Virus record (IMG/VR): IMGVR_UViG_3300026097_000119
Location: 1 to 21,865 of that record
Source of the DNA: a virus
Reading direction: 5' to 3' (one strand)
Length of the DNA: 21,865 nucleotides
Part shown: positions 7,645-20,437 of the stretch, in pieces
Layout: each line of letters opens with the position of its first letter
Numbering within the stretch: the stretch's first letter is position 1
Translations under genes and position numbers: made by a program
Notes under the pieces: model-generated
Database searches by the model: none
The model's input: only the letters and a program-made list of their open reading frames with translations
What the model was told of the DNA's origin: nothing

Positions 7645-8353
7645 AAAACGGCAATTTTATGAATTCTGACTCTTTATATTCATTAAATTTTTCTTCATAT
7701 AATTTTTTAAGTATTTTCATTACTCGAGTAATATATGTAGTTTGATTTGGTTCTAATTTAGATCGCTCGCGTATTAATATATAAAGTGATTTTTTATTAA
7801 AATTCTCAATATTTATTCTGTTTTCAAAGAAGTGTAAAACAGAATCTGCTACATGAATATCTATAGATGAATTAAAGATAGAATTTAAATTGGCATAACA
7901 ATATTCAACAAAATAATCCATGAATATTTTTAGATTATCCTGCATTTCATCATTATCTTGTTCGTTAATAATATTTCTGTCATCATCAACATTGAATTCA
8001 TCAACTTTTGATTTAAGTTTTTTATATGCCTTTGAATTCTCTGCGATTAAATAATGCCAGGCTGTGCGAGTAAAATATGAATATCCTTTACCTTTATCTC
8101 GTTTTATTTTCGGTAACCGCTCGGTTAAGTATGTAACTAAATCTGTTTGTAAATCAATAAATGACTTATCAATATAATCTGCCTTCATTTGATTGATTCG
8201 GTTTTCACTCAATTTCATTAATGGTTTGAATAAAAATCTTCGATAAATTTTCTCACGTAATACAGAATCTTCACTGCATTGATTGTATGCTTGTATTGCA
8301 TGTTCTGTTATTGTCGTCCAATATCTATTACTCGCCTTCTTCTTGCGTCCCAT
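7643..8353 (-). CDS. Late-transcription sigma factor, T4 gp55 family
   Basis: The product (236 aa) is likely the phage sigma factor that redirects host RNA polymerase to late promoters. A basic N-terminus (MGRKKKASNRYW) is followed by a helical region like sigma region 2 (about residues 40-115): KIYRRFLFKPLMKLSENRIN, then DLQTDLVTYLTERLPK and GYSYFTRTAWHYLIAENSKA. The last has the aromatic-rich shape of the promoter-melting helix. An acidic linker and a C-terminal helical segment (NKKSLYILIRERS, YITRVMKILKKLYEEK) complete the family layout. I chose the second ATG because related proteins, as I recall them, begin with MxRKKK. A start at 8365 adds four residues. It overlaps the end of the upstream TM gene by 26 bases. 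Confidence 0.8.
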   Translation of the reverse strand: MGRKKKASNRYWTTITEHAIQAYNQCSEDSVLREKIYRRFLFKPLMKLSENRINQMKADYIDKSFIDLQTDLVTYLTERLPKIKRDKGKGYSYFTRTAWHYLIAENSKAYKKLKSKVDEFNVDDDRNIINEQDNDEMQDNLKIFMDYFVEYCYANLNSIFNSSIDIHVADSVLHFFENRINIENFNKKSLYILIRERSKLEPNQTTYITRVMKILKKLYEEKFNEYKESEFIKLPF

Positions 8354-8627
8354 TAAATTCTTCATTTAAATTTGTTAATACTTCTTTCAATAAGCTAAAA
8401 GTAGTTCCTGATTCGTCATCCTTTTCAAATGCACCTAATCGATCGATTCGTTTTAAATTTTCATGTGCATGATCAATTGATCTATACATGTATTCAGATA
8501 ATTCTTCAATCTGATTAGTATAATCAATTTGGTCTTCTAATAACCCAGCTAGAATATAACCTCGATATATAAAATATATTACAGCTATTAATAGTATAAT
8601 ACATGTTATTAATAATGTTATCAACAT
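8328..8627 (-). CDS. Single-TM membrane protein with cytoplasmic tail
   Basis: This 99-aa protein starts with a strong transmembrane helix (about residues 2-22, LITLLITCIILLIAVIYFIY). It continues with a charged helical stretch (QIEELSEYMYRSIDHAHENL) and GAFEKDDESGTTFSLLKEV, and ends in an acidic tail. The FEKDDESG..F..LKE motif recurs, as I remember, in small membrane proteins of marine T4-like phages, whose function is unknown. It lies between the HD-domain gene and the sigma factor and overlaps the latter. No holin or spanin signature is visible beyond the single TM. Confidence 0.6.
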   Translation of the reverse strand: MLITLLITCIILLIAVIYFIYRGYILAGLLEDQIDYTNQIEELSEYMYRSIDHAHENLKRIDRLGAFEKDDESGTTFSLLKEVLTNLNEEFNGTQEEGE

Positions 8628-8632
8628 AATAA

Positions 8633-9409
8633 TTATTTTGATTCTTTAGTAAATTCACTGAAAATATCCGTAACTGATTTTGCAATTTCCGGATTATTTT
8701 CTGCTATATTTTTTATTGCATTACTTCTAGTTTGTTTTGATTTTGGAGAATGAACTTTTGGTGTCTTATTATTTCTCCATCGTTCATATTCAATTTGTGC
8801 TGCCATATGGTCGCCGTGATGTAAAATGATAGGTAAATTTGTTTTTAATTTAGCTTGAGCTGTCCTGGCAATAAAATACGGTTTATTTGCATCATCATAC
8901 ACGCCATCATGTATTTTAATTGCTTGATATTCATTCCATGAAATTTTAACATCATATTGTTGTAGCAACCATAATGAAAGATCAGGTACCATTGAAAATG
9001 GTATATTTTCATTATATTTATACATTCGGCCCATATTTTTTCGATGCCAATCCGATGTTTCAACTTGATATACTTCATTGCCATCGCCAGGAAATCCTAC
9101 TTTACCTAAATCATGATGCATTGCTGCAAACATCATTTCTTCTTTAGTATAACCAGACATATCAGAACCCATTTCTTTCCACGATTCATATAATTTAGCT
9201 GTACAATCCATAACACGCAATACGTGGTCTATATAACCTCCAGCAAATGCATTATGATAATGGGCAATAGACGATGCTGGCATCAGTACTATGCGATCTT
9301 CTAAATCGTCATATAATCGATTTAATTGCGATACACGAGTAGGAAATAAATTGGTTATTCGAGATCGATATTCTTCCCAGTTTGATTTAATTTTTTCTGC
9401 TTCTAACAT
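8633..9409 (-). CDS. HD-domain metal-dependent phosphohydrolase
   Basis: This 258-aa protein has a complete HD-type metal site. H62 lies in GGYIDHVLRV, H98-H99-D100 in AAMHHDLGKVG (the HD signature), H167-D168 in IKIHDGVY, and H197-H198-G-D200 in LHHGDHMA. HD proteins hydrolyse phosphate esters of nucleotides or cyclic nucleotides. In phages this group has been proposed to act on nucleotide pools or signalling nucleotides; the substrate here is unknown. The preceding ASSIAHYHNAFAGGYIDHV block is like HD proteins seen in other T4-like marine phages. The C-terminal 40 residues are basic and probably flexible. The gene opens the run that ends in the sigma factor. Confidence 0.8.
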   Translation of the reverse strand: MLEAEKIKSNWEEYRSRITNLFPTRVSQLNRLYDDLEDRIVLMPASSIAHYHNAFAGGYIDHVLRVMDCTAKLYESWKEMGSDMSGYTKEEMMFAAMHHDLGKVGFPGDGNEVYQVETSDWHRKNMGRMYKYNENIPFSMVPDLSLWLLQQYDVKISWNEYQAIKIHDGVYDDANKPYFIARTAQAKLKTNLPIILHHGDHMAAQIEYERWRNNKTPKVHSPKSKQTRSNAIKNIAENNPEIAKSVTDIFSEFTKESK

Positions 9410-9415
9410 AACTTG

Positions 9416-9430
9416 TTTTAAATATAATTT
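9416..9430 (-). promoter_or_regulatory. Weak promoter-like AT box
   Basis: On the minus strand this reads AAATTATATTTAAAA, ending 6 bases before the ATG at 9409, in the gap after the zinc-ribbon gene. It is a shortened version of the recurring box and may be only AT-rich leader. Confidence 0.25.
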
Positions 9431-9436
9431 AATTAA

Positions 9437-9604
9437 TTAATTTCGTTCTTCCAATATTTTACCTTCAACCAATTTATGCGTGCACATAGAGCATGTAACT
9501 TTAACTGCGCGAATATCACATCGTGGTACGGCTGTACCGCAATATTTACACTTCAATACATGAAAATTCGAACCATGTATATTCTTTAATTTAGATTTTT
9601 TCAT
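9437..9604 (-). CDS. Zinc-ribbon microprotein (55 aa)
   Basis: The ATG at 9602-9604 overlaps the TGA of the upstream membrane-protein gene (ATGA), giving a 55-aa frame that ends at TAA 9437-9439. The protein is basic at the N-terminus (MKKSKLKNIHG) and contains two CxxC knuckles, CKYC (residues 19-22) and CSMC (38-41), plus C29 and H43. This is a classic zinc-ribbon arrangement, usually binding nucleic acid or RNA polymerase subunits. Its ATGA coupling to the membrane protein suggests co-translation. A partner role in transcription is possible, but there is no direct evidence. Confidence 0.75.
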   Translation of the reverse strand: MKKSKLKNIHGSNFHVLKCKYCGTAVPRCDIRAVKVTCSMCTHKLVEGKILEERN

Positions 9605-10575
9605 TTATTTATTTTTTTTCGTTTGGCAGCCGATCTCCAAACATTATGCAATGACGGTGGTTTATATAGTTTTTGGTTCGGAGTATCAGTAGGCAGTTCA
9701 TTTTTTATATTTTCATTTTTTTCATTAGTTGACTGAGAAGAGTCTGACACTGTATTGTTTTCCTTAAACTTATTATTTGATATAGTTAATTTACTCGATA
9801 ACAATTTATTTGCCGAAATTAACATGATAATTGCTAGTGGATCAAACACTATAATAAACAACAATATAAACCAATTCACTACACGATCCATACTTATTTG
9901 TAATATATTAGCTATATAAGTTAATGGACCTAATTCAGCAACTACATCATTATTTGTTTTTAAATTAAAAATTTGCATTTCAATTGAATTTATTGAATCT
10001 GAAATTGCAATTTCATTGCCTGCAATTTTATCTCTTCTAATTAAAGCTAAATCCAATTGTTCTTGCAATGTTTTTCTAGTTGTTCTAGATGTCGTAGTAA
10101 TCCGATTTCCATCGTCATCTACATAGCTTATAACGTTGTTTGCCAGCCCCTTTGTCAATTCTGATATATTGGTATTCAAGGATTGTTTTTCTGCTTGTAT
10201 AGCACCTAAATTCGCTGTATAACGGCTTTTTTTAAGATCTAATACTGAAACTTTACTTTCAATTTCTGACATTTTATATGCAGTTTCCTGATAAGAAGAA
10301 ACCATGAATCCATATATGCCTAACGACGTAATAGACATCAATACAATTACAGCTACTGCAAAATATGTCTTTGTAATCCATTTTATATTTGCCCAATGTC
10401 GATGTAAATATGATGCTGCAATTAATTTAGACATTTCCAATATAGATGCCATTATAATAACCGCTGTTTCTTGTGCCGAAAAGAGTTTACTCAATCCAAA
10501 TATACTATAATATGCAGCTGTCGCTGCCAATGATAATGCTGATAACAACATTAAAAAGGGTAATATACGTTTCAT
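9601..10575 (-). CDS. Polytopic membrane protein with long coiled-coil loop
   Basis: This 324-aa protein has predicted membrane segments near residues 4-24, 36-56 and 69-91, then a long helical, coiled-coil-prone region (about 95-212, with a short YVDDDGNRITTTSR turn). A fourth TM helix follows (about 231-255, WFILLFIIVFDPLAIIMLIS), then a polar 60-residue tail ending in RSAAKRKKINK. The TM-coiled coil-TM arrangement with the FDPLAI motif is one I recall from conserved but uncharacterised proteins of marine T4-like phages. It might remodel the host membrane or form a scaffold under it; this is inference. It is followed by the ATGA-coupled zinc-ribbon gene and preceded by a 5-base gap. Confidence 0.7.
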   Translation of the reverse strand: MKRILPFLMLLSALSLAATAAYYSIFGLSKLFSAQETAVIIMASILEMSKLIAASYLHRHWANIKWITKTYFAVAVIVLMSITSLGIYGFMVSSYQETAYKMSEIESKVSVLDLKKSRYTANLGAIQAEKQSLNTNISELTKGLANNVISYVDDDGNRITTTSRTTRKTLQEQLDLALIRRDKIAGNEIAISDSINSIEMQIFNLKTNNDVVAELGPLTYIANILQISMDRVVNWFILLFIIVFDPLAIIMLISANKLLSSKLTISNNKFKENNTVSDSSQSTNEKNENIKNELPTDTPNQKLYKPPSLHNVWRSAAKRKKINK

Positions 10576-10580
10576 AATAA

Positions 10581-10760
10581 TTATTCTCTGTCTACATAGT
10601 ATTTAGCCGACTCAATTTTTTTAATTGCACGGGCTAAATTATCTAGGGTTGATTGTTTATCAATTTTACCTTCATTGAGCATTTTTCCTACATTTCTTAC
10701 GATTTCATGTGCTTCAATAAGATCATCTGTAACTTTTTCTTTGTATTTGTAATACGCCAT
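10581..10760 (-). CDS. Small helical protein (59 aa)
   Basis: An ATG at 10758-10760 opens a frame of 59 residues ending at TAA 10581-10583. The product begins MAYYKYKEKVTDDLIEAHEI and ends ESAKYYVDRE. It is lysine- and glutamate-rich and almost entirely helical, and I recognise no family. Support comes from its fit between neighbours (5 bases before the membrane-protein ATG, 34 bases after the UvdE stop), an AT box just upstream, and the absence of a better frame. It could be a small regulator or the cytosolic partner of the membrane protein. Confidence 0.65.
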   Translation of the reverse strand: MAYYKYKEKVTDDLIEAHEIVRNVGKMLNEGKIDKQSTLDNLARAIKKIESAKYYVDRE

Positions 10761-10775
10761 AATTTATTTGTTTTA

Positions 10776-10794
10776 TTATTTATATATAAATATG
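10776..10794 (-). promoter_or_regulatory. Promoter-like AT box after the UvdE gene
   Basis: On the minus strand this reads CATATTTATATATAAATAA, 15 bases before the ATG at 10760. It matches the recurring box and would start the unit of 59-aa protein, membrane protein and zinc ribbon. Confidence 0.4.
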
Positions 10795-11814
10795 TTACGT
10801 TAATAATTGCGGCTGGCAACAAGCGATATTTGCTTTTTTCAATGTTAATTCTTTTGCCTTGGCTTCTACTTCGATATCTAAATCATTAACGCCATATGTA
10901 TCAGGTAAATTTACAATATAATCTGAATGAGCTTGTTCTTTGATCTTGGTGAATGCCTTGTATTCTTTGTGGAATGTCGGCCATTGCTCAATATTTTCCA
11001 TGTTGATACCATGATGTTCAAACATTCGCTCTATCTGTAATTGCTGCTCGCGTCTACGAGACTCTGAGTAATGAGTACACTGAATAACCCCATGCTTCTC
11101 CCACGTCTCTCGTGCCATAAAGAATGCTTCTTCTTCGGATAAACCACCAGTATTAAAAGTATGATGCCAATAGTCAAAAGTAATAGGAATATCAGTTACA
11201 GAATGTACCATTTCATATAAATCTCGTACCGAATACATGGATGCCTTGTCATCATTTTCGAGAACTAGTCTAGCTCGTAAATTATCAGATAATTTTTCAT
11301 AGTTAGACACCCATCTGTCTATAGTAGCTCGTTTATCGCCATATGTAGCACCTACATGAATATTGATAAGATTTTCAAAGCTAGGTGCATAACCCATAAG
11401 ATCAAACATTTCACTATGTCGTTCTAAACCTATAATGCTATTTTCAACAATCTCTTGTTTTTCTGCACCTAATATGTGAAATGGACCTGGATGTGTAGTT
11501 AGTCGATGTCCGTGCTCTCGAGCATAATCGCCGGCGGTACGAAGATGATGAGTAATTTCTTCTATATCAGGAAGATCTGATATCTCATAATGATTCCAAC
11601 GAGGAAATATTTCAGATCCGATTCGAAACAATCGAATACCATTCTGCTCATTCCATTGTAGTATAGGAAGTAAATCTTTTGCATTTTTTAAGGATATATC
11701 AGATGCTAACTGCATACCACCTTCTATAAATTTGCGTTGAATCATAGTACGACCCGTACGGATATTATCTTCACTCAAAGTCATATTATTACAACAGTAA
11801 CCAAATCTAATCAT
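10795..11814 (-). CDS. uvdE: UV-damage endonuclease UvdE (UVDE) family
   Basis: The enzyme nicks DNA 5' to UV photoproducts (and some other lesions), starting UvrABC-independent excision repair. The 339-aa length is normal. The TIM-barrel signatures are present in order: RFGYCCNNMTL (residues 3-13), IRLFRIGSEIFPR (60-72), RLTTHPGPFHILGA (104-117), NIHVGATYGDK (151-161), RLVLENDDK (182-190), ITFDYWHHTF (211-220) and CTHYSESRR (246-254). Probable metal ligands H108, H153, E186, D214, H217 and H248 are all kept. The C-terminal DIEVEAKAKELTL segment also fits the family. The gene reads away from repeat copy A. A phage copy would protect virion or replicating DNA in sunlit water. Confidence 0.93.
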   Translation of the reverse strand: MIRFGYCCNNMTLSEDNIRTGRTMIQRKFIEGGMQLASDISLKNAKDLLPILQWNEQNGIRLFRIGSEIFPRWNHYEISDLPDIEEITHHLRTAGDYAREHGHRLTTHPGPFHILGAEKQEIVENSIIGLERHSEMFDLMGYAPSFENLINIHVGATYGDKRATIDRWVSNYEKLSDNLRARLVLENDDKASMYSVRDLYEMVHSVTDIPITFDYWHHTFNTGGLSEEEAFFMARETWEKHGVIQCTHYSESRRREQQLQIERMFEHHGINMENIEQWPTFHKEYKAFTKIKEQAHSDYIVNLPDTYGVNDLDIEVEAKAKELTLKKANIACCQPQLLT

Positions 11815-11862
11815 AATTTTTTTTTAATTTTTCGTTAACTATTTAATTATTTAAATACACCA

Positions 11863-11877
11863 ATAATATAAGTATAA
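11863..11877 (-). promoter_or_regulatory. Promoter-like element for uvdE
   Basis: On the minus strand this reads TTATACTTATATTAT, within repeat copy A and about 48 bases upstream of the uvdE ATG. It matches copies B and C through TTATACTTATATT and then diverges. It lacks the full TATTTATA extension, so it may be weaker. Confidence 0.3.
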
Positions 11878-11940
11878 TTTTTCAGAAGTCCTAATAATAA
11901 CGGGTTTTTAATTGTGATATATTTATATAAAAATAGAATA
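11865..11940. repeat. Mosaic intergenic repeat, copy A (right arm)
   Basis: This 76-base segment matches 13715-13790 with, by my count, three mismatches. Shared landmarks are TTTTTCAGAAGTCC, AATAACGG and the plus-strand box GATATATTTATATAAAAATAG. It lies between divergent genes (uvdE on minus, the 395-aa gene on plus). The side facing uvdE is only loosely similar to the other copies, so identity is concentrated in the arm that faces the plus-strand gene. Confidence 0.85.
11918..11932 (+). promoter_or_regulatory. Plus-strand promoter-like AT box
   Basis: TATATTTATATAAAA reads toward the plus-strand gene and ends 15 bases before its ATG at 11948. TTGTGA lies directly before it, as at 13762. 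It is the same box seen on the minus strand elsewhere, flipped with the gene. Confidence 0.5.
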
Positions 11941-11947
11941 TATATAT

Positions 11948-13135
11948 ATGATACGTTTAACAGATTTATTGAATGAACAGACCCGCGTAACTGATGCTGT
12001 ATATCGGACTGAAGCGGCTAGTTATACTAGACAACAATTACCTAGCATAATTGATCGATACAATCCAAATTCTGGATATTTAGTTATAACTGATGGAAAC
12101 CCATGGTTAGCTGAACAACGAGCGCGTAATTTAGCTTCATTTTTAGCTAAAAATGTAGAATCTCAAGTAAAGATACCATTCAATAAAAATTCAGTTAAAG
12201 TTTTAGAAACTGCTGTATCTAAGAATAAAGGAGATGAATATCAATATGTTGAAGGTACTTTGTATGCAATTATGGAAAAAAGAGGTGTCCCTGCTGAACA
12301 ATATGCATACGACTTATTATATAACTTTTATGAAATTAATGGTAATCCACATATTGTAGTAACTAAAGAGGGTGCTGGAACACCTTATAAAATAACTAAA
12401 GAAAAATATAAAAAATACCCTGTAGAAGCTGTAAAACACGTCACAAGAAATGCAATTGACGCAATTAACGATAAAGGTTTTGCAGTTTATCAGGCAAATG
12501 CCGGTGATGAGGGCAATATAGGTATCTTAGTACCTATCCCTAAAAATTATGCAAAAAAGGTGGGTAATAGATTATACTTTAATGATAAAGAATCGTTAAT
12601 GAATATGAGAACATTTATCGGGAAATATACAGAAGGTAAGGATGAATTCACTAAAGATGAATCTAATCATCTATCATCAGATTGGACTAAACGAACCAAT
12701 ATTGGAGGTCCGGGAAATTACATATTCGGCCGCGAAGATGGTTCTCGTGCAAAAATAGTTTCAGGGTCAGATAAAGATAAGGACATTGTGATTAAAAGAA
12801 CTTACCGCAAAAAAAGTGGAGATCCCGGAATTGCCAAAGCAGGAACAGCTGTTAAAAACAAATGGGTTAAGATAGGTGAATTTAATTTAACAAAAGCAGA
12901 AGGCGCGTTCGCAGACAATATGATAAAAGTGCAACCTGGTGCATATCAAAAAATATTTAATGAATTAAAAACTGTGGTAGAAAAATATCTTGCAGAAGAA
13001 TTAATTATTAAAGAAATATCTGCTACTGTTAAAGGGTATGCATCTGCAGATCGAGCAACAAATAGAACTAATATTGGAACACCTGATCACGATTGGGGAG
13101 TTGGTTTCCCTTCAAATAAATGGATCTCTAAATAG
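11948..13135 (+). CDS. Unknown 395-aa protein with capsid-targeting-like N-terminus
   Basis: One of only two plus-strand genes, its product matches no family I recognise. The N-terminus MIRLTDLLNEQTR has a short amphipathic helix ending in L-x-E (L8-N9-E10), like the capsid-targeting peptides of T4 internal proteins (MKTYQEFIAEA). The rest is soluble and mixed alpha/beta, with GTLYAIMEKRGVPAEQYAYD (about 98-117), a Lys-rich stretch near 145-165, GGPGNYIFGREDGSR and a basic DKDKDIVIKRTYRKKSGD segment (about 275-293). It is expressed from repeat copy A and its stop abuts the stop of the convergent CAP gene with no gap. An internal or injected virion protein is a hypothesis. Confidence 0.6.
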   Translation: MIRLTDLLNEQTRVTDAVYRTEAASYTRQQLPSIIDRYNPNSGYLVITDGNPWLAEQRARNLASFLAKNVESQVKIPFNKNSVKVLETAVSKNKGDEYQYVEGTLYAIMEKRGVPAEQYAYDLLYNFYEINGNPHIVVTKEGAGTPYKITKEKYKKYPVEAVKHVTRNAIDAINDKGFAVYQANAGDEGNIGILVPIPKNYAKKVGNRLYFNDKESLMNMRTFIGKYTEGKDEFTKDESNHLSSDWTKRTNIGGPGNYIFGREDGSRAKIVSGSDKDKDIVIKRTYRKKSGDPGIAKAGTAVKNKWVKIGEFNLTKAEGAFADNMIKVQPGAYQKIFNELKTVVEKYLAEELIIKEISATVKGYASADRATNRTNIGTPDHDWGVGFPSNKWISK

Positions 13136-13672
13136 TTATTGAAATCTTCTAAATTGAACTACAAAATATGGTTCATGTTGACCTTTTTCTGTCATACGGT
13201 AAAATGAACCTACTCCTATATATTTAGCATATGGATCTAAGATATTATTTCTATGTGCCGGTGACCCTATCCAAACACGAACAGCCCGTGTTGCTATCGA
13301 ATAATGTGTAATCCATTGAATCGTAGTAGCTATCGTAATATTTTCCGAAAAATTATATTTTCGGTGATCGGTGTGGTTTGGAACTCGCTCATCATTAATA
13401 TGACAAAGGATTCCGTTAGTCGCCATCCATTCTGCGTGATTATTAGCTAACCGCATTAAGGCAGTATCAATTTTACATGGCTCTAATCCGTTCTCAACTC
13501 GATACTCATTAACCATTTCAAACATGATGGCGTTAATCGTTTCAATGTCAAAAAAGTCATCTGTGATAGTATCGTGGCGATAAGGTTGTTCTAAAATAGT
13601 GTCATGTAAAGGATTTTGTGATATAGACAAACCACTAACTAACAATGCTAATACCATTAATAACTTTTTCAT
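13136..13672 (-). CDS. Secreted CAP/SCP-domain protein
   Basis: The 178-aa protein has a signal peptide (MKKLLMVLALLVSGLSISQ, cleavage near residue 18-19), a polar linker, and a CAP domain (about 45-178). CAP signatures are MVNEYRVENGLEPC, LANNHAEWMATNG, FSENITI, GSPAHRNNILDPYAKYIGVG and YFVVQFRR. The four cavity residues H79, E81, E110 and H140 are present, as is H91. Bacterial CAP proteins are exported and often tied to cell-envelope functions, but their biochemical activity is mostly unknown. The upstream 70 bases and the signal-peptide DNA are shared with the secreted 172-aa protein gene (see repeats). Export from the infected host, or alteration of the envelope, is inferred. Confidence 0.9.
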   Translation of the reverse strand: MKKLLMVLALLVSGLSISQNPLHDTILEQPYRHDTITDDFFDIETINAIMFEMVNEYRVENGLEPCKIDTALMRLANNHAEWMATNGILCHINDERVPNHTDHRKYNFSENITIATTIQWITHYSIATRAVRVWIGSPAHRNNILDPYAKYIGVGSFYRMTEKGQHEPYFVVQFRRFQ

Positions 13673-13744
13673 AATTTCTAAATTTTAATTTGTTAATTAT
13701 TTAATTATATTATAAATATAAGTATAATTTTTCAGAAGTCCAAA
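13631..13744 (-). repeat. Promoter plus signal-peptide cassette, copy B
   Basis: This is repeated at 15014-15126. It comprises the first 42 coding bases of the CAP gene (13631-13672; 38 of 42 match by my count) and the upstream leader 13677-13744 (67 of 68 match), separated by a short non-matching spacer. Beyond residue 14 of the signal peptide the two proteins are unrelated. Confidence 0.85.
13709..13722 (-). promoter_or_regulatory. Promoter-like box for the CAP gene
   Basis: On the minus strand this reads CTTATATTTATAAT, about 37 bases before the CAP ATG. It is identical, apart from the final base pair region, to the box before the 15055 gene and close to that before the 20399 gene. Confidence 0.45.
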
Positions 13745-13790
13745 AAATAACGGTTTTTTAATTGTGATATATTTATATAAAAATAGAATA
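13715..13790. repeat. Mosaic intergenic repeat, copy B (right arm)
   Basis: This segment pairs with copy A at 11865-11940 over 76 bases with three mismatches. Copy B is the only one that carries both arms: the CAP-facing arm shared with copy C and the plus-facing arm shared with copy A. Confidence 0.85.
13768..13782 (+). promoter_or_regulatory. Plus-strand promoter-like AT box
   Basis: TATATTTATATAAAA, preceded by TTGTGA, is identical to the box at 11918-11932. It lies 26 bases before the ATG at 13809. Confidence 0.5.
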
Positions 13791-13808
13791 TTAAATTGTA
13801 GAAACAAT

Positions 13809-14459
13809 ATGAAAAACAAAAACCTTCTAGCAGAAAACATGCTAAGATTCCGAGCAAAAAACCTTTCTGAGACTACTAAACGTAAGATTGTGAAGTTGGC
13901 TGAGATTATTACAGAACAAGATCAGTCAAATAAAGATGAACTTTATCAAAGCTCTAATATAACACTACAACTAGATTCGATTATGAGTGGCAAAAAAGTT
14001 GCACGAATTGATGGTAATGTGGACTTTTTTTCATTTCCAACCCAAATGGAAGACGGTCGTCCTCTTATTGCCGGAAGCTGGTCAACTCAACGAAAAGCTA
14101 GTGCGTTATATAAACTTTCTGAAAACCAATATATTGTTGTAGGAAATATAGGAAAACTTAATAGGGACTATAAAGTTCAAGGTGCTAAGCCACTAGCATT
14201 TATAGTCGCAATGAGCCAGGTAACCGATTCTGAAGGAAAGACAGTAAGATTACCAATTACGCCAATTGAAATCAAAAACCCGGGGCTTGTAATTGTGGAA
14301 TTAATTAACAAGGTTATGCCTAACTTTAGTGCTAAGCCTGAGGCGGCAAAGGAGTTTGTCGATAATATGATTAATACATTTAAACTATCGGCTTTAAGTC
14401 AGGATATATCGGATGTGGATAAGTTGAAAGAACGCATTTTGACACGTTTAGACATATAA
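13809..14459 (+). CDS. Unknown 216-aa protein with LLAENMLRF N-terminal motif
   Basis: The start is set at the ATG at 13809, because the longer frame (GTG at 13764) would begin inside the promoter box shared with copy A. The N-terminus reads MKNKNLLAENMLRFRAKNLS and is followed by a basic helix and EIITEQ. It contains L-x-E/I-x-E sites at residues 7-9, 19-21, 30-32 and 34-36, the type of site cut by T4 prohead protease. I recall similar LLAENMLRF-type starts on otherwise unrelated marine phage proteins. The body (about 55-150) is beta-rich and has no known active site; the C-terminus is helical. Packaging in the capsid is a hypothesis. Confidence 0.65.
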   Translation: MKNKNLLAENMLRFRAKNLSETTKRKIVKLAEIITEQDQSNKDELYQSSNITLQLDSIMSGKKVARIDGNVDFFSFPTQMEDGRPLIAGSWSTQRKASALYKLSENQYIVVGNIGKLNRDYKVQGAKPLAFIVAMSQVTDSEGKTVRLPITPIEIKNPGLVIVELINKVMPNFSAKPEAAKEFVDNMINTFKLSALSQDISDVDKLKERILTRLDI

Positions 14460-14493
14460 ATTTTACGTAATAAATTTTGTTATTAATAAATAA

Positions 14494-14514
14494 AATGGGG
14501 CAATTTGCCCCATT
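14494..14514. terminator. Bidirectional terminator hairpin between convergent genes
   Basis: AATGGGGC and GCCCCATT pair around a 5-base loop. On the minus strand the stem is followed by TTTTATTTATT, a good U tract that would end transcripts coming from the plus side's opposite gene only if they ran leftward, i.e. past the end of the 15055 gene. The plus-strand side has a weaker T-rich tail. It sits between the stops at 14459 (plus) and 14537 (minus). Confidence 0.8.
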
Positions 14515-14536
14515 ATTACTAATTATTGACTATTAC

Positions 14537-15055
14537 TTATTTATATAACGAACGCTTGTTATCTGATATAGAACGAAGAGCATATTCATAGTAATGAAAT
14601 GATATATCTCTATATTTATTAGTTTCCTTATTCGTAATAGTAAGATATTCCGTCGAAAGCTGCTTTCCATCTGCCTGATCAGATTCAATATAACGGTACC
14701 GAACATCATATTGGGACGTATCAATCACTTGAATTGAATTTAACCATTTATCATATGTACATGTTTTCAATAAGTCTTCGGGATGAACTGCATTAATAGC
14801 TAATTTGGTAATATCTGGATTAATCTTGCCATACATATACTTTACTGAGTCATTAAAAAAAATATTTTTCAACAATCCAACTACTGCCATATCATCACCA
14901 CCTACCTTAAATGAATTTGTAGTTTTATACCATTCTTCATACTCAGTCATTGCATTATCTAGATATGATTGAGTTGTTGAATCTAACTCTATTTCTTCTT
15001 GACTAAATACAGCGCCACTAATTAACACTGCTAATACCACTAATAACTTTTTCAT
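14537..15055 (-). CDS. Secreted protein of unknown function
   Basis: The 172-aa product has a flavobacterial-type signal peptide (MKKLLVVLAVLISGAVFSQ, likely cut after Q19 or just before it). The mature part is acidic and soluble and matches no family I know. It contains a YLDNAMTEYEEWYKTTNSFK helix, a single Cys at about 109 (KTCTYDKW), and a beta-rich C-terminal half (YDVRYRYIESD, YLTITNKETN). The signal-peptide DNA and the upstream leader are nearly identical to those of the CAP gene, although the mature regions are unrelated. There is no lipobox, so it should be periplasmic or released. It may act together with the CAP protein in the host envelope; this is inference. Confidence 0.7.
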   Translation of the reverse strand: MKKLLVVLAVLISGAVFSQEEIELDSTTQSYLDNAMTEYEEWYKTTNSFKVGGDDMAVVGLLKNIFFNDSVKYMYGKINPDITKLAINAVHPEDLLKTCTYDKWLNSIQVIDTSQYDVRYRYIESDQADGKQLSTEYLTITNKETNKYRDISFHYYEYALRSISDNKRSLYK

Positions 15056-15126
15056 TGCTCTAAATTTTAATTTGTTAATTATTTAATTATACTATAAATA
15101 TAAGTATAATTTTTCAGAAGTCCAAA
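15014..15126 (-). repeat. Promoter plus signal-peptide cassette, copy C
   Basis: This is the counterpart of 13631-13744. The leader part (15059-15126) and signal-peptide part (15014-15055) are shared. Identity stops right after CAGAAGTCCAAA, and the plus-facing arm of copies A and B is missing. Beyond it lies the end of the KOW-like gene. Confidence 0.85.
15091..15104 (-). promoter_or_regulatory. Promoter-like box for the secreted 172-aa protein
   Basis: On the minus strand this reads CTTATATTTATAGT, about 36 bases before the ATG at 15055. It is the copy C equivalent of the box at 13709-13722. Confidence 0.45.
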
Positions 15127-15135
15127 TTATCAGAG

Positions 15136-15696
15136 CTAATTTTTTACGAATCCACTTAAAAAGTCTCTTTGCTGTTGTGCCGTTTTATTTAATTTGGTCT
15201 TTTTTCTTGTAACAGATTGTGATTTTTTCTTATTGACATATGAAGTGCCATGCTCATGAGAATTTTTTGTGTCAACATTTTTTCTGATTCTGCTATTTGA
15301 TGTTGATTTGTTATTGTTATTAATAGATTGTCTAGAGCTTGTTGACGAATCTGGTGTGCTACTAGCTGCCCCGCGGGGCTTTCTAGATATTGTTGAATTG
15401 TTGAATTCTTTTCGTAACGAACTTTGTCCTGAGTTGTCGGTTTCGTTGGCAAGTATGAATCCTGGTGCGTCCCGGGATGATTTGTAATTATTGATTTCAA
15501 TCCCACACGTATATAATTTACCAATACTTTTAACTTTATAATAACTTTGTTCATTGCGTTTAATAATTTCAATTATTTTACCGATTTTACGTTCTCCTAA
15601 CCAGGTTATATAGACAACATTACCTACTTTATATTGTGGCTTTTTAAATTTAGCTTGTATATATTTAGGAATAATTTGTGTTTTCTTTTTTGCCAT
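15136..15696 (-). CDS. SH3/KOW-like basic protein with disordered tail
   Basis: The N-terminal 75 residues form a small beta-barrel-like module: YKVGNVVYITWLGERKIGKI, then IEIIKRNEQSYYKVKSIGKL and YTCGIEINN. This resembles KOW/SH3-like domains that bind nucleic acid or ribosomal partners. The remaining 110 residues are low complexity and rich in Ser, Asn, Lys and Arg (SRKPRGAASSTPDSSTSSRQ), with a basic end (KKSQSVTRKKTKLNK), consistent with RNA or DNA binding. The N-terminal module is similar to the protein at 16808-17080. The start ATG lies one base after the stop of the upstream gene. No enzymatic site is seen. Total length is 186 aa. Confidence 0.6.
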   Translation of the reverse strand: MAKKKTQIIPKYIQAKFKKPQYKVGNVVYITWLGERKIGKIIEIIKRNEQSYYKVKSIGKLYTCGIEINNYKSSRDAPGFILANETDNSGQSSLRKEFNNSTISRKPRGAASSTPDSSTSSRQSINNNNKSTSNSRIRKNVDTKNSHEHGTSYVNKKKSQSVTRKKTKLNKTAQQQRDFLSGFVKN

Positions 15697-15697
15697 A

Positions 15698-16183
15698 TTA
15701 ATTGGGACATATAATCGAATTGATCCCGATTATATTATATACACGAAGATATCTTGTTAATTTATCTTTACGAAACATTTTTTCGGTTTCTTTATCTCGT
15801 TGCAAAACATAACCGGTATCGAAAAAGTTATATATGATATGTTTTAAAGATTTTAAACTATTCGATTCGATTAAAATATGATCGTCGTCAATCAAAATAT
15901 CAACACGATTTTTTGAATTAATATCGTCTTCAGGAATATATTCAATAGTTGTTTGTGAGTCTTCTTGTGAATCTAATTCAATCGTTGAATTTAACTCATC
16001 ATATATTTCATTGAAAAATTTTCCTAATGTATCATCGGTATCAATATTATTTTTTACGTGTATATCAAATAAATCAGTAATATATTGAAATTTTTCATAC
16101 GCAGTATAATCCAACATCAATTGATATTCATGTTTAGTTACATCAACATGTTGAAAAATATTGTTCATTTCATTACAATTCAT
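15698..16183 (-). CDS. Unknown acidic 161-aa protein
   Basis: This soluble, acidic protein has no recognised domain. Residues 75-105 hold a Glu/Asp-rich patch (STIELDSQEDSQTTIEYIPE), followed by VDILIDDDHILIESNSLKSL. The C-terminal quarter is basic (RDKETEKMFRKDKLTRYLRV). Two in-frame ATGs exist. The first (16183) overlaps the stop of the upstream 53-aa gene, and the second would start at 16168 and avoid that overlap. It belongs to the closely packed run of small genes from 17289 down to 15136. Confidence 0.5.
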   Translation of the reverse strand: MNCNEMNNIFQHVDVTKHEYQLMLDYTAYEKFQYITDLFDIHVKNNIDTDDTLGKFFNEIYDELNSTIELDSQEDSQTTIEYIPEDDINSKNRVDILIDDDHILIESNSLKSLKHIIYNFFDTGYVLQRDKETEKMFRKDKLTRYLRVYNIIGINSIICPN

Positions 16184-16334
16184 TAGTTACTGTATATAAT
16201 TTAATAAATTTATTAACTGGTATTTTTTTTAATTTTGAAAAATATTCAATTGCTTGTTTGATATTATTACATTTATATTTTGAAATAATCTCATTTGTTG
16301 AATCGATATTAGAATAATAGCCAAATTTTTGCAT
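16173..16334 (-). CDS. Small helical protein (53 aa)
   Basis: This frame from the ATG at 16332-16334 encodes MQKFGYYSNIDSTNEIISKY, then KCNNIKQAIEYFSKLKKIPV and NKFIKLYTVTNEL, and stops at TAA 16173-16175. It overlaps the next gene by 11 bases. The AIEYFSKLKKIPVNKFIKLYTV pattern looks like a short helical motif found in small Bacteroidetes phage proteins, but I cannot name the family. It has its own promoter-like box (16337-16352), which supports it as a real gene. Confidence 0.6.
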   Translation of the reverse strand: MQKFGYYSNIDSTNEIISKYKCNNIKQAIEYFSKLKKIPVNKFIKLYTVTNEL

Positions 16335-16336
16335 AT

Positions 16337-16352
16337 TTTATTATAAATATAA
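16337..16352 (-). promoter_or_regulatory. Promoter-like AT box for the 53-aa gene
   Basis: On the minus strand this reads TTATATTTATAATAAA, just 2 bases before the ATG at 16334. It overlaps the end of the preceding gene. The distance is short for a leadered message, so this box may double as the translation leader. Confidence 0.35.
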
Positions 16353-16739
16353 TCCCAATTGATATTTTCTGGTTATACTTGTCAATGAATCTTCAACTGT
16401 TTCATATAACCGATTAATTTCTGTTATGTTCATTTTAAATGATTTATATCTAATCCGGATATCATGTTTACATTCAATATCTTCTGTAATATTTTTTATA
16501 TTTGTTTTTAATATTAATTTTAATTCTTCTAAATCATTCAATGTAACTGGTATATGTTGTTGTAATATTACTAATTCACCAACCACAGTTGACGTCGGAT
16601 TATCACGTAATGATTTTATAGTGATAGGTTTTAAAATAAAATCAATACTAGCCCATAATGAGCCATATTTGTTTATATATTTATCTGAAATGCCCCATGG
16701 CTGGTTTATACTATTCATATTCATGTTCTTTATATTCAA
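16341..16739 (-). CDS. Unknown 132-aa protein
   Basis: This is a soluble, mostly helical protein. It has a WGISDKYINKYGSLWASIDF N-terminal stretch, then LILKTNIKNITEDIECKHDI and a C-terminal helix (EINRLYETVEDSLTSITRKY). I recognise no family. Several ATGs occur within the first eight codons (MNIKNMNMNS), so the exact start is uncertain. The region upstream holds an AT box inside an inverted repeat (16752-16792). Confidence 0.5.
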   Translation of the reverse strand: MNIKNMNMNSINQPWGISDKYINKYGSLWASIDFILKPITIKSLRDNPTSTVVGELVILQQHIPVTLNDLEELKLILKTNIKNITEDIECKHDIRIRYKSFKMNITEINRLYETVEDSLTSITRKYQLGLYL

Positions 16740-16751
16740 AAATTAATGATT

Positions 16752-16792
16752 ACAGTTTATATATAACTATATAAATATTATTGATAAACTGT
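16752..16792 (-). promoter_or_regulatory. Inverted repeat enclosing a promoter-like box
   Basis: ACAGTTTAT (16752-16760) and ATAAACTGT (16784-16792) are perfect 9-base inverted arms. They flank a minus-strand box TAATATTTATATAGTT (16765-16780) before the gene starting at 16739. This could be an operator pair around a promoter, or a hairpin in the leader. Neither arm is followed by a U tract, so it is unlikely to be a terminator. Confidence 0.4.
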
Positions 16793-16807
16793 TGTATTCG
16801 TTCGGTA

Positions 16808-17080
16808 TTACCTAGTATACGGTAACATATCAGTTTCTACTAAATCTGCATATGGAATATTGCTTTTTATAACTTCCGTGTCAATTAACATTTTTGTTAA
16901 ACTATTATCTATATAGATATTTTTAGATTTTGCTGTATTAACACATGTAATACAAGATCTAGATTCTAATAAAATGTCATAAAACTGATTTTTATTAACT
17001 ATGAATTTTTTTATTATTTTTCCTACCTGATTGGTGCCTCGTACATTAACGATAACATCATTTCCTTCTTTATATGCCAT
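16808..17080 (-). CDS. SH3/KOW-like small protein
   Basis: This 90-aa protein has the N-terminal half YKEGNDVIVNVRGTNQVGKI, then IKKFIVNKNQFYDILLESRS. It lines up with the N-terminal module of the 15136-15696 protein: a GN.V......G....GKII core, about ten residues, then .FYD/.YYKV strands. The C-terminal half (DNSLTKMLIDTEVIKSNIPY) differs and lacks the Ser/Arg tail. The ATG overlaps the stop of the DUF4494-like gene by one base (TAATG). A nucleic-acid-binding or translation-related role is possible by analogy with KOW/SH3 folds. Confidence 0.6.
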   Translation of the reverse strand: MAYKEGNDVIVNVRGTNQVGKIIKKFIVNKNQFYDILLESRSCITCVNTAKSKNIYIDNSLTKMLIDTEVIKSNIPYADLVETDMLPYTR

Positions 17081-17289
17081 TAGTCAATAATTTTTATTAT
17101 TTTACTTTGCGTTATACCCTTTACTTCGAATGGTACAGAATAACCTTCAAAATCTTTAATAACTTTAGCTTCTGCCTCTGTAACAGACATTGCTTCTACT
17201 AAGTATGATTCTGTAATTTTTTTTGATTTTACACCGCGAGGCGTATCAATTTCATCAATGATTTGAACTTTTGTTACGTAATAACTCAT
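17080..17289 (-). CDS. DUF4494-like protein
   Basis: This 69-aa protein is read from the ATG at 17289. A longer frame adds a poorly conserved N-terminus. The core VKSKKITESYLVEAMSVTEA followed by EAKVIKDFEG and FEVKGITQSKIIKIID matches the pattern I know for DUF4494 (KVTEPYLVDALSFTEAEARI ... FEV). That family is found almost only in Bacteroidetes and their phages, and its function is unknown. It is one of the clearest hints to the host lineage. Confidence 0.7.
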   Translation of the reverse strand: MSYYVTKVQIIDEIDTPRGVKSKKITESYLVEAMSVTEAEAKVIKDFEGYSVPFEVKGITQSKIIKIID

Positions 17290-17353
17290 AAATTTAAAAT
17301 ATTTAGTTTCTATAATTATAATAGAAAATATATTGGATATAACCAATAAATAT

Positions 17354-18307
17354 TTATTTTTTAATTAAGTTACGTAATTTATTTTGATTTTTATAAAATG
17401 TATATGATCGTAATATTTGGTTTGGCGTTAAGCCAAAATTATGAGCTAAATTATCTAATATATCTGCTACTAAATGTTCTTTTTCAATCGTATTGTGTAT
17501 TTTATTACTTAAATTTTTAATTATTTTTTCAAGCAATATTAAATACCCACTAGGTAATCTTTTTAATACACGAGATTTAGATGCTCGTTTACGAAAAGAA
17601 ATAGATTTATTTTGTTCTGATAATAATTTTTTAGCTATATGAGCTGATTCTTTTAAAATTTCTGGATACGTAAAGTGAGAATGTACATCATATGACATTT
17701 CATATATTAAATTTCCGGTTTTACTGAATGATTCTTCTGGTCCTTCGTCTGGTATTTCTTCTGGTTCATTGTCAGCTACATCTTCACCTGTATCTGTTCC
17801 ACCTGTATCAGGTACCTCTACATCACCTTCGCCTGTATCATCACCGCCGATATCTCCAGTTTCAAGATCAGCAGTTGTCATTCCACCACCGCCGCCTGAA
17901 AAGTCACTATCCGGTACCGTTGTGTCAGTAGGGGTATCAGATTTATCATCATTTGGCTCGTCATTTGTACTGAATGCAGTTAATGTTTCTAGCGGAACAT
18001 TGCATTTTATTGTATAATCTGTATTTCTACTATATCCAGTATACGGAATTATAGAAATTACATTAGATTTCAATAATGACGCAATTACATCTGGAGTAGC
18101 ATTATATATAGCACCACTACGATTTATAAATTCTTGTATACCTATATCAGATCTAGAATATAATATACCTAAAGAATCATTTCCAGACTTACCAAAATGT
18201 GCTAAAAATTTTTGTTGTTCTGGAGTATATACAGATTCTGTTCCAGTAATATCACCCTCTTGCTCTATTAATAATTCATTTACTATGCGTTCAAATAATT
18301 TTTTCAT
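17354..18307 (-). CDS. Acidic-linker protein with capsid-targeting-like N-terminus
   Basis: The start is placed at the ATG at 18305-18307, which forms an ATGA overlap with the Hc1-like gene. A longer frame adds ten residues. The product (317 aa) begins MKKLFERIVNELLIEQEGDI, with L-x-E-type sites (L13-I14-E15). A globular region (about 25-112) is followed by an extremely acidic, Asp/Gly/Thr/Pro-rich linker (about 114-194) with TGDIGGDDTGEGDVEVPDTG repeats, then a basic helical C-terminus (SFRKRASKSRVLKRLPSG, LSNKIHNTIEKEHLVADILD). Such a charge-segmented layout suits a scaffold-like or packaged protein, or a DNA mimic region. None of this is proven. Confidence 0.6.
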   Translation of the reverse strand: MKKLFERIVNELLIEQEGDITGTESVYTPEQQKFLAHFGKSGNDSLGILYSRSDIGIQEFINRSGAIYNATPDVIASLLKSNVISIIPYTGYSRNTDYTIKCNVPLETLTAFSTNDEPNDDKSDTPTDTTVPDSDFSGGGGGMTTADLETGDIGGDDTGEGDVEVPDTGGTDTGEDVADNEPEEIPDEGPEESFSKTGNLIYEMSYDVHSHFTYPEILKESAHIAKKLLSEQNKSISFRKRASKSRVLKRLPSGYLILLEKIIKNLSNKIHNTIEKEHLVADILDNLAHNFGLTPNQILRSYTFYKNQNKLRNLIKK

Positions 18308-18495
18308 TTTTGTATTTGTTTCGATTCTCGTAAACACGCAGTGCGATATTGCCCCGAAATCTTTTTTAATTCTAATATAGATTTTCTAGCACGACTCCCG
18401 GCAGCTTTTACTTGTTTATTATGGAATCGAATATGATTTTCTTCGAATATTTCCCATAATTGTTTCATTTCTTCATATAATTCTTGTGAATTCAT
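18304..18495 (-). CDS. Histone H1-like protein, Hc1 family
   Basis: This 63-aa protein (start at 18495; a start at 18504 adds three residues) has a helical N-terminal half. The signature follows: NKQVKAAGSRARKSILELKK, then ISGQYRTACLRESKQ. This is the Hc1-type block found in small DNA-binding proteins of Bacteroidetes and Chlamydiae (KAAGxRARKxxxELxKxxxxFRxxSxxxSK). Those proteins bind and compact DNA. The gene is coupled by an ATGA overlap to the acidic-linker gene below it. A role in condensing phage or host DNA is the natural inference. It lacks the long Lys/Ala-rich tail of chlamydial Hc1. Confidence 0.75.
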   Translation of the reverse strand: MNSQELYEEMKQLWEIFEENHIRFHNKQVKAAGSRARKSILELKKISGQYRTACLRESKQIQK

Positions 18496-18496
18496 A

Positions 18497-18706
18497 TTAA
18501 TCATATAAAAAATTAGTTTGTTCTGTATCTGACTTCATTGCATATATTCGTTCTGCCAATTGTATATAAGGTAAATTCGTTGTTATTTTTAACCCGTTTG
18601 TTAATTGAATAAGTGTCGAATTATTTAATTTAGACAAATATATTATATGATATATATTCACCATATATATACAATCATTATGATCGGTTATTTGTATAAG
18701 TTTCAT
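18497..18706 (-). CDS. Small beta-rich protein (69 aa)
   Basis: This short, mainly beta-strand protein reads MKLIQITDHNDCIYMVNIYH, then IIYLSKLNNSTLIQLTNGLK. The layout (strand, sensor loop, strand, TNG turn) resembles small FlbD-like or Bacteroidetes phage hypothetical proteins, where L..G..I.V...I. patterns recur. The C-terminus is helical (IQLAERIYAMKSD). It starts 5 bases after the previous gene's stop and overlaps or abuts the Hc1-like start, so it is probably in the same transcript. Function is unknown. Confidence 0.55.
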   Translation of the reverse strand: MKLIQITDHNDCIYMVNIYHIIYLSKLNNSTLIQLTNGLKITTNLPYIQLAERIYAMKSDTEQTNFLYD

Positions 18707-18710
18707 AAAC

Positions 18711-19121
18711 TTAATCTAATGGCATTCTTGGAAATATACTACGTGGATCAATATTGGTGTTTACAATATTATCCATGGATGTCGATGTGTCAGTATCGTC
18801 ATCTTCATAGAAATCACTATCGTCTATAGCTACTCCTTTTAGTTTATCAGCAACATCAATTAATGTTTTTAAATAATATTGAGATGGATTACCTTTTGAT
18901 AGGAAATTTATTATTGTATTATAATCTTGTACACCTAATTTAAAGTCTTTAACTAAATCCGCATTCTCTTCAAACCAGTTTAAAACTTTTTTTCTCGAGA
19001 ATTGTTTATTACGTATATTATTTTCAAATATCCTCGTAGCATTATTTTTTTTAAATTTAGAAATTTCTTCAGCAACGATTCTTTGATGTCGTACGTTTGT
19101 TAAATCTAATAATTTTATCAT
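18711..19121 (-). CDS. Unknown helical protein with acidic tail
   Basis: This 136-aa helical protein begins MIKLLDLTNVRHQRIVAEEI and has a basic segment (NNIRNKQFSRKKVLNWFEE), then QDYNTIINFLSKGNPSQYYL and KTLIDVADKLKG. It ends in a flexible acidic stretch (DDSDFYEDDDTDTSTSMDNI). No family is recognised. A role as adaptor or small structural protein is possible. The gene sits in a compact row with gaps of 4-6 bases on each side. Confidence 0.5.
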   Translation of the reverse strand: MIKLLDLTNVRHQRIVAEEISKFKKNNATRIFENNIRNKQFSRKKVLNWFEENADLVKDFKLGVQDYNTIINFLSKGNPSQYYLKTLIDVADKLKGVAIDDSDFYEDDDTDTSTSMDNIVNTNIDPRSIFPRMPLD

Positions 19122-19127
19122 AATATT

Positions 19128-19490
19128 TTATTTTAAATTTTCTAATTTGTATATTGTAGTATAGATCAATTCAATTACTCCGTCATATAAATTTTGTAAA
19201 TATGAATCGTCTGGTAACTTATCGTATATTTTTTCACAGAATAATGCCAATCCTTTGAAATACGTTATAACTTTTTTATCCATATAATTATCTAATCCTG
19301 CAGGCGGAGTATAATTTTTAATGATTCCATGTTTTCCTTGATATGATTCTGTAATAGAATCTATTAAATCTACAATATTTTCATAATAATCTTGTAATGC
19401 CTCGTGTTCGGCATATGATTTTGTTTGTAAATGATAAATGTGAGCTTGAGTTCGACTCGCGAATAATGTAGATATAAACTTTTCTATCAT
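19128..19490 (-). CDS. Dps/ferritin-like helical protein, DUF5856-like
   Basis: This 120-aa four-helix-type protein has the segments FASRTQAHIYHLQTKSYAEH and EALQDYYENIVDLIDSITES. The H-x-x-H-L/W-x-x-x-x-x-x-x-x-H-x-x-L-x-x-x-Y spacing resembles the metal-site helices of Dps-like ferritins, where conserved His, Glu and Asp bind iron. The remembered DUF5856 family of marine phage proteins has the same look. Whether it binds metal or DNA is unknown. It has its own promoter-like box, and a terminator lies just upstream of that. Confidence 0.55.
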   Translation of the reverse strand: MIEKFISTLFASRTQAHIYHLQTKSYAEHEALQDYYENIVDLIDSITESYQGKHGIIKNYTPPAGLDNYMDKKVITYFKGLALFCEKIYDKLPDDSYLQNLYDGVIELIYTTIYKLENLK

Positions 19491-19504
19491 GGTTGTATTT
19501 GTTA

Positions 19505-19519
19505 TTTAATATAAATATA
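19505..19519 (-). promoter_or_regulatory. Promoter-like AT box for the Dps-like gene
   Basis: On the minus strand this reads TATATTTATATTAAA, ending 14 bases before the ATG at 19490. The terminator just upstream indicates that a new transcription unit begins here. Confidence 0.55.
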
Positions 19520-19526
19520 TAATCAT

Positions 19527-19554
19527 AAAAAAACCCAAGCTAATTAGCTCGGGT
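19527..19554 (-). terminator. Rho-independent-type terminator
   Basis: On the minus strand, ACCCGAGCT pairs with AGCTTGGGT (one C·A mismatch) around AATT and is followed by TTTTTT. It closes the unit holding the 105-aa and 53-aa genes, just before the next promoter-like box. Confidence 0.85.
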
Positions 19555-19565
19555 CTTGCAACTAA

Positions 19566-19585
19566 ACGTCTAAGGTAGCAGACGT
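19566..19585 (-). other. Short hairpin after the 53-aa gene
   Basis: ACGTCT (19566-19571) and AGACGT (19580-19585) can pair around an 8-base loop. It lies 4 bases past the stop codon and 12 bases ahead of the terminator stem in transcription order. It has no U tract. It may stabilise the transcript 3' end or be incidental. Confidence 0.35.
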
Positions 19586-19589
19586 GTGG

Positions 19590-19751
19590 TTAATCTTTTA
19601 TTTTAATAGTTAGTTCCTGACTTTTTAATTCCACTTTAAAATTACTTGGTATTAACCGCTCAATATATTCTTTATAATATTCAGCGCGATCGAAATCTGG
19701 TTTCTTGGATTCTTTCTTTTTTTCAGATAATATGTCTCGCAAACTAATCAT
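19590..19751 (-). CDS. Small protein (53 aa) with L-x-E start
   Basis: An ATG at 19749-19751, four bases past the stop of the 105-aa gene, opens a frame of 53 residues ending at TAA 19590-19592. It reads MISLRDILSEKKKESKKPDF, then DRAEYYKEYIERLIPSNFKV and ends KSQELTIKIKD. The start resembles MKLKNILLE of its neighbour, with an L-S-E site at residues 8-10. The rest is charged and helical with a basic strand-like end. No family is recognised. It shares one transcript with the 105-aa gene, bounded by a promoter-like box and a terminator. Confidence 0.65.
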   Translation of the reverse strand: MISLRDILSEKKKESKKPDFDRAEYYKEYIERLIPSNFKVELKSQELTIKIKD

Positions 19752-19755
19752 CGTG

Positions 19756-20073
19756 TTATTCTGCGTCTAGTTCAGCCTGGTATCCGATATCTCCTAATAT
19801 ATCCAACAATTCATTGAATGCATGCAAATATCCCATTTTTTCTTCACGTTGCAAAACACTGTTAGTAGCCATATTACTACGTATGTTTTGAAGCATATCT
19901 TCTGCATCTGATACTAACTCTAATACTGAATAATTAGATCGATCTCTAGAAGCTTCTGTGGTTAACCTAGTGTTAGCTTGGTGAGCGGCCGTTGTGTCTG
20001 CCAATGTAGGAAGAGAACCATCGGCACGACGTTCCCATGCGTATCCTTCTAGCAATATATTTTTTAATTTCAT
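19756..20073 (-). CDS. Unknown 105-aa protein with capsid-targeting-like N-terminus
   Basis: The product begins MKLKNILLEGYAWERRADGS, with L7-L8-E9 as a potential prohead-protease-type site. The body is a helical, acidic region (SVLELVSDAEDMLQNIRSNM, then EEKMGYLHAFNELLDILGDI) of the sort seen in internal virion or coiled-coil proteins. No family is recognised. It is the first gene of a two-gene unit with a good promoter-like box and terminators on either side. Packaging in the head is a hypothesis based only on the N-terminus. Confidence 0.6.
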   Translation of the reverse strand: MKLKNILLEGYAWERRADGSLPTLADTTAAHQANTRLTTEASRDRSNYSVLELVSDAEDMLQNIRSNMATNSVLQREEKMGYLHAFNELLDILGDIGYQAELDAE

Positions 20074-20089
20074 GTATATCTTTTATTAA

Positions 20090-20105
20090 TTTAATATAAA
20101 TATAA
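20090..20105 (-). promoter_or_regulatory. Promoter-like AT box for the 105-aa gene
   Basis: On the minus strand this reads TTATATTTATATTAAA, preceded closely by TTTGTG, and ends 16 bases before the ATG at 20073. It lies directly after a terminator, making it the best-isolated copy of the box. Confidence 0.6.
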
Positions 20106-20108
20106 CAC

Positions 20109-20135
20109 AAAAAAAAAGACCCCATAACGGGGTCT
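20109..20135 (-). terminator. Rho-independent-type terminator
   Basis: On the minus strand, AGACCCC and GGGGTCT form a perfect 7-bp stem with a 5-base loop and are followed by a run of T. It ends transcripts of the 78-aa gene at 20163-20399. Confidence 0.9.
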
Positions 20136-20162
20136 AATTATGGTAGTATATATGAAAAAAAA

Positions 20163-20399: not shown

Positions 20400-20421
20400 A
20401 CTTAAACTTTTTAATTTATTA

Positions 20422-20437
20422 ATATTATAAATATAAG
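20422..20437 (-). promoter_or_regulatory. Promoter-like AT box for the 78-aa gene
   Basis: On the minus strand this reads CTTATATTTATAATAT, ending 22 bases before the ATG at 20399. It is very close to the boxes of the CAP and 172-aa secreted-protein genes. Confidence 0.5.

Follow-up and report, generated by a model that had tools for sequence, protein, structure and literature searches.

Mobile regulatory cassettes of T4-type phages, termed PeSLs, were reportedly described by Arbiol et al. in 2010 and by Comeau et al. in 2014. According to one account (PMC4503421), a PeSL combines a promoter with a stem-loop terminator, and this repeated regulatory DNA lets genes shuffle in T4-type phages. 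The T4 internal proteins IPI-III and Alt carry a short N-terminal propeptide which ends at an (I/L)xE site and is followed by divergent mature parts; by means of such propeptides, unrelated proteins reach the head, and the propeptide of gp21 itself is a suspected targeting signal (PMC9026906). In Bacteroidetes, the so-called Q-rule describes Sec/signal peptidase I substrates with a glutamine at position +1 after the cleavage site (PMC5837995), and the -33/-7 promoter consensus is TTTG/TAnnTTTG (PMC6847099).

The stretch of DNA analyzed here (the window, 21,865 nucleotides) is a metagenomic fragment of a large virus and corresponds to positions 1..21,865 of the IMG/VR record IMGVR_UViG_3300026097_000119. 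A second contig, IMGVR_UViG_3300007609_000209, carries the same arrangement with proteins 100% identical to those of the window, which argues against an assembly chimera. The baseplate gene of the window is similar to its counterparts in Microcystis phage Mel-JY01 and Flavobacterium phage immuto, and the HD-domain gene to that of immuto, in which no such island as described below was found beside the HD gene. Both predicted exported proteins of the window carry a glutamine directly after the predicted cleavage site (Q following SIS and VFS, a match of pattern only), and under the Q-rule this points to a Bacteroidota as the likely host. For comparison, 80 relatives were fetched via a neighbouring gene and not via the cassette, and 79 further loci were added by a search with the tag of the opposite arm; the contigs of the relatives are fragments, and a simple script was used to call their start codons.

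We consider it probable, on the strength of these sequence comparisons, that the locus is a cargo-swapping island of T4-like Bacteroidota phages, built on two address labels and on recombination between repeated walls. The repeated units would be bidirectional intergenic walls, in which one arm would combine a promoter of host-like type with a leader and a Sec signal peptide, and the other would join a promoter of the structural-gene type to an N-terminal tag that resembles a capsid-targeting sequence and contains (I/L)xE protease sites. Neighbouring walls would enclose a convergent cargo pair, of which one member would be exported, to the periplasm or beyond the cell, and the other would probably enter the phage head and so reach the next host. 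Through homologous recombination of near-identical walls, cargo would be added, deleted or swapped, with expression and addressing kept.

The right edge of the island is formed by uvdE/uvsE, a conserved UV-damage endonuclease gene (10795..11814, minus strand; Pfam UvdE E 2e-57; TIGR00629 193 bits), and its left edge by a conserved flanking gene of cluster c15 (15136..15696, minus strand; 23 members). Wall 1 (11815..11947), a bidirectional intergenic module, separates uvdE from a tagged gene of 395 aa (11948..13135, plus strand), which has a relative in L012 and a type B N-terminus, MIRLTDLLNE followed by Q. This gene lies tail to tail, at 13135/13136 and with zero gap, with the gene of an exported CAP-domain (YkwD-like) protein of 178 aa (13136..13672, minus strand), which passed the curated Pfam CAP cut-off with 55.5 bits vs 21.1 (E 1.3e-14) and matched the YkwD family TIGR02909 (E 3e-13). 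Its signal peptide codons (13619..13672, minus strand) correspond to MKKLLMVLALLVSGLSIS with Q at +1. Wall 2 (13673..13808), again a bidirectional intergenic module, stands between the CAP gene and a second tagged gene of 216 aa (13809..14459, plus strand), whose N-terminus is of type A, MKNKNLLAENMLRFRAKNLSETTKRKIVKLAEIITE followed by QD, and whose capsid-targeting-like tag covers 36 codons (13809..13916, plus strand). The last cargo gene encodes an exported acidic protein of 172 aa (14537..15055, minus strand), with signal peptide codons at 15002..15055 (minus strand) corresponding to MKKLLVVLAVLISGAVFS and then Q. Relatives of the acidic protein were found only in L062/L064, profile searches placed it in no known family, and an AlphaFold2 model from 3 sequences had a pLDDT of 42, too low for a fold search. 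The tag, the acidic protein and the 13809-14459 protein were not found in the collections of isolated phages searched, nor were the tag and the acidic protein found in the bacterial genomes searched.

A preliminary description of this DNA had noted near-identity between about 13631-13744 and 15014-15126. By blastn, the two segments match at 93% over 112 bases (E 5.4e-44), far above chance even in AT-rich sequence, and the coordinates given for them are correct, the minus-strand ATG codons lying at 13672 and 15055. The counts made by eye were reproduced exactly, with 67/68 bases in the leader (the longest run with <=1 mismatch) and 38/42 among the first coding bases. The 68-base run begins 3 bases upstream of the ATG; the 5-6 bases adjoining the ATG differ between the copies and include one indel. 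In the CAP arm the promoter core runs from TTTGGA (13739-13744) to TATATT (13717..13744, minus strand), with host-like -33/-7 spacing. The leader half of the other cassette (15056..15126, minus strand) has TTTGGA at 15121-15126 and the shared core at 15099-15123. Away from the CAP gene, the repeat continues in the direction of a divergent gene. The promoter half occurs a third time upstream of uvdE, where intergenic positions 11835-11941 match 13685-13791 at 89% over 107 bp and the uvdE arm contains an exact copy of the shared promoter core GGACTTCTGAAAAATTATACTTATA (11867..11891, minus strand); the repeat therefore reaches the genes which start on the opposite strand at 11948 and 13809. The proposal of a single module placed before varied cargo is supported, with the refinement that the cassette forms half of a bidirectional module, the opposite arm of which carries a capsid-targeting-like tag. 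A weak fourth leader match was observed at 20414-20437, preceding the 20163-20399 gene of the main-strand operon.

Between the conserved flanking gene and uvdE, genes on the opposite strand which share the N-terminus LAENMLRFGxKNLSE and repeated (I/L)xE sites alternate with the exported genes. We counted 131 tagged proteins of types A and B, falling into 57 mature families (E<1e-3), and a divergent tagged gene stood beside 51 of the 54 uvdE genes of unique relatives. The tag is about 20-36 residues long and usually has two or three sites: an (I/L)xE occurs at the tag anchor in 41/41 and a second one 12 residues later in 30/41, and the density of such sites is 0.076 in the tag vs 0.005 in the protein body, a difference of about 14 times. 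A gp21-type (T4-type) prohead protease (PF03420, E about 1e-34) is encoded in five of the eight long relatives and does not occur in the fragmentary window. From gene order and similarity, we take the genes beside it in the long relatives to be portal- and capsid-like. A two-site pattern with a central Phe, composed after inspection of the tagged and protease sequences, was present in 30/40 tagged proteins and in 0/771 other proteins. The same pattern occurs in the N-terminus of the protease itself in two genomes and in a neighbouring protein in a third; the protease of L098 misses the strict form. Given this pattern shared with the protease and the precedent of the T4 propeptides, we infer that the common N-terminus of the opposite-strand genes is a capsid-targeting tag, by which their products would be packaged. 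Like the T4 capsid-targeting sequence, it is an (I/L)xE propeptide carried by different mature proteins in phages with a gp21-type protease. It differs in being longer, in lacking demonstrated sequence homology to the T4 tag, in serving dozens of cargo families and in alternating with exported genes.

Outside the island, a second tag-like N-terminus, MI/KxLxxILxE, was observed on many small and diverse genes (window 17354-18307, 19590-19751 and 19756-20073; L073 4-2278), which possibly encode more head-targeted proteins. In L036 (4002-7467), three tandem tagged genes belong to one mature family, which suggests local duplication on the tagged arm.

The two arms carry different promoter motifs. 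The pattern TTGGA-N16..20-TWATW was found in the exported arm in 31/36 cases (shuffle mean 0.8), and before 0/41 tagged and 0/118 structural genes; it is close to the Bacteroidetes -33/-7 consensus. Conversely, ATATTTAT was found at 38/41 tagged genes (shuffle mean 2.2), at 116/118 structural genes (shuffle mean 3.4) and in only 6/36 exported arms. In the window, this structural-gene type of promoter motif lies at 11919..11926 (plus strand) for the tagged gene at 11948 and at 13769..13776 (plus strand) for that at 13809. Its association with structural genes suggests that the two arms, if active as promoters, would differ in early vs late timing. The T4 late motif TATAAATA was also weighed for the walls; the motif held in common with the structural genes of the clade is ATATTTAT, on the tagged strand. 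A hairpin with a GC-rich symmetric stem, AATGGGGCAAATTGCCCCATT (14494..14514, listed on the minus strand), lies between the convergent genes of the acidic and the tagged protein and is likely to be a two-way terminator. No terminator-like hairpin was found in the walls at 11815-11947, 13673-13808 and 15056-15135.

The exchange of cargo could be followed between close relatives. In L009, the exported leader and signal peptide of the acidic gene are kept (94.5% over 109 bp), as are the convergent partner's leader and tag (88% over 174 bp), and the roughly 1.1 kb between these conserved ends are unrelated, with a different exported protein at the same locus; homology on the tagged side stops about at the junction of IITE and QD. 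Similarly, L015 and L037 have uvdE genes 97.3% identical and entirely different cargo, and L058 and L063, which are 97.8% identical, differ by extra modules. An island which lies between conserved genes and changes its content beside a 97% identical uvdE would also be expected of an ordinary moron hotspot, where the repeats merely mark past insertions and are neither recombination sites nor paired-address modules. We consider this unlikely. Exported and tagged genes alternate on opposite strands in a near-invariant manner, a convergent tagged neighbour lying beside 62 of the 65 exported genes, and the island has two dedicated tags and two promoter classes. Moreover, convergent pairs are co-inherited, though not strictly, with 25 matches observed vs 1.1 in permutations. 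Conserved ends, changed cargo and co-inherited pairs are most simply explained by homologous recombination between the walls, which we regard as the probable mechanism of the swaps.

A swapping island of this kind has much in common with the PeSLs, namely repeated intergenic regulatory DNA, presumed homologous recombination and a reshuffling of small genes among phages of T4 type. A promoter pattern is conserved within the repeated intergenic DNA (31/36, with leaders repeated within genomes), and adjacent genes are shuffled between relatives (window/L009, L015/L037, L058/L063). A PeSL has its terminator inside the repeat; the island, with its hairpin between convergent cargoes, is in this respect no PeSL, and its repeat is bidirectional and continues into the codons of two targeting peptides.

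As a check, the preliminary description had suggested a search of related phages for the cassette before different proteins. The related genomes bore the idea out, the cassette being found before many different exported proteins and also before uvdE. Among the relatives and the loci found with the tag, 65 unique exported proteins fell into about 19 families (E<1e-3), and most exported proteins of the relatives have a glutamine right after the predicted cleavage site. They share this +1 Gln with the Q-rule exports of Bacteroidetes, with the difference that the signal peptide of the island is phage-encoded and reused as an exchangeable module. A scan with the leader of another lineage recovered 6 stretches in 5 viral contigs, two of which had two or three copies. 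The repeat could instead represent a conserved promoter class only, selected for RNA polymerase binding without any module being moved, and TTTGGA..TATATT is indeed common to 31/36 exported genes and is found before some other genes as well. Such an origin appears very improbable to us, because the identity spans the whole leader and enters the codons, far past the motif. Leaders of non-homologous exported genes of the same genome had a median score of 42 (11 pairs) and the leader pair of the window a score of 66, whereas control gene pairs (n=7085), which include pairs with the same promoter type, had a median of 9 and a maximum of 28. The conservation of both ends of the swapped block between the window and L009 likewise goes beyond a promoter class.

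How far the repeat enters the coding sequence differed between genomes. In L116, which has a CAP-like cargo, and L142, which has a different one, codons 1-19 match at 55/57 nucleotides and the next 33 bases at only 18. The signal peptides of L108 and L159 are identical at 18/18 residues, with divergence directly after. When synonymous codons were randomised, such identity was rare for most of the top pairs (p 0.0005 to 0.02), two pairs giving 0.12 and 0.04. The idea of a joint promoter and signal-peptide module before different cargoes is upheld by its recurrence, but has to be narrowed: in most genomes the clear DNA repeat consists of the promoter and 5' leader, and the signal-peptide codons were clearly copied along with it only in some. 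In one observation apart, L015 (1056) and L020 (1057) have the same leader and the same cargo (78% mature identity) with dissimilar signal-peptide codons, which were either swapped or are evolving very fast.

The two exported proteins of the window had been described as sharing no mature part, one being a CAP protein and the other acidic. The BLASTP match ends within the signal peptide, Pfam and family searches likewise return a CAP domain for one and no known family for the other, and hhalign gave a probability of 0.35% between the CAP and acidic families, so that no profile homology links the mature parts. By hhalign, a distant CAP relationship was seen among several exported families, and part of the exported diversity thus reflects divergence within one family. 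We give hardly any credence to the duplication of one secreted gene with fast divergence of the mature part and purifying selection on the leader, despite these CAP relatives and the tolerance of signal peptides to change, because the CAP and acidic proteins show no profile homology, because a mostly non-coding leader is 67/68 identical beside unalignable mature parts, and because L009 has a third, unrelated protein behind this leader and signal peptide at the same locus.

A wall-based island with swapped cargo suggests that this phage lineage has made protein address into exchangeable DNA, one label for export being set opposite another which probably directs packing into the head. In the limited literature searched, we found no description of these two labels in one exchangeable module. 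If true, new periplasmic and virion-carried functions could be acquired directly, and modularity driven by recombination could be tested at the level of protein address. The labels may also serve as a ready marker for effectors of Bacteroidota phages, since dozens of uncharacterised families stand behind them.

As to the function of the cargo, a search with PADLOC returned no defence or counter-defence match. CAP domains among the exported proteins, an exported L,D-transpeptidase lipoprotein in L035 and peptidoglycan-binding or LysM domains among the tagged proteins hint at the envelope, and the cargo may serve to manipulate the host envelope or to compete. As a working guess, the exported proteins would alter or shield the envelope of the infected cell, and the tagged proteins would have an early role in the next host. 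We also entertain, as a rather doubtful possibility, that each convergent pair is a functional unit of an exported protein and a virion-packed partner for the next host, such as an envelope effector with its partner or a superinfection-exclusion pair, the tandem array being reshuffled as an arsenal. The gene for the exported L,D-transpeptidase lipoprotein lies in the island between two tagged genes, in L035 (1327-1947) as in L053 (6605-7225).
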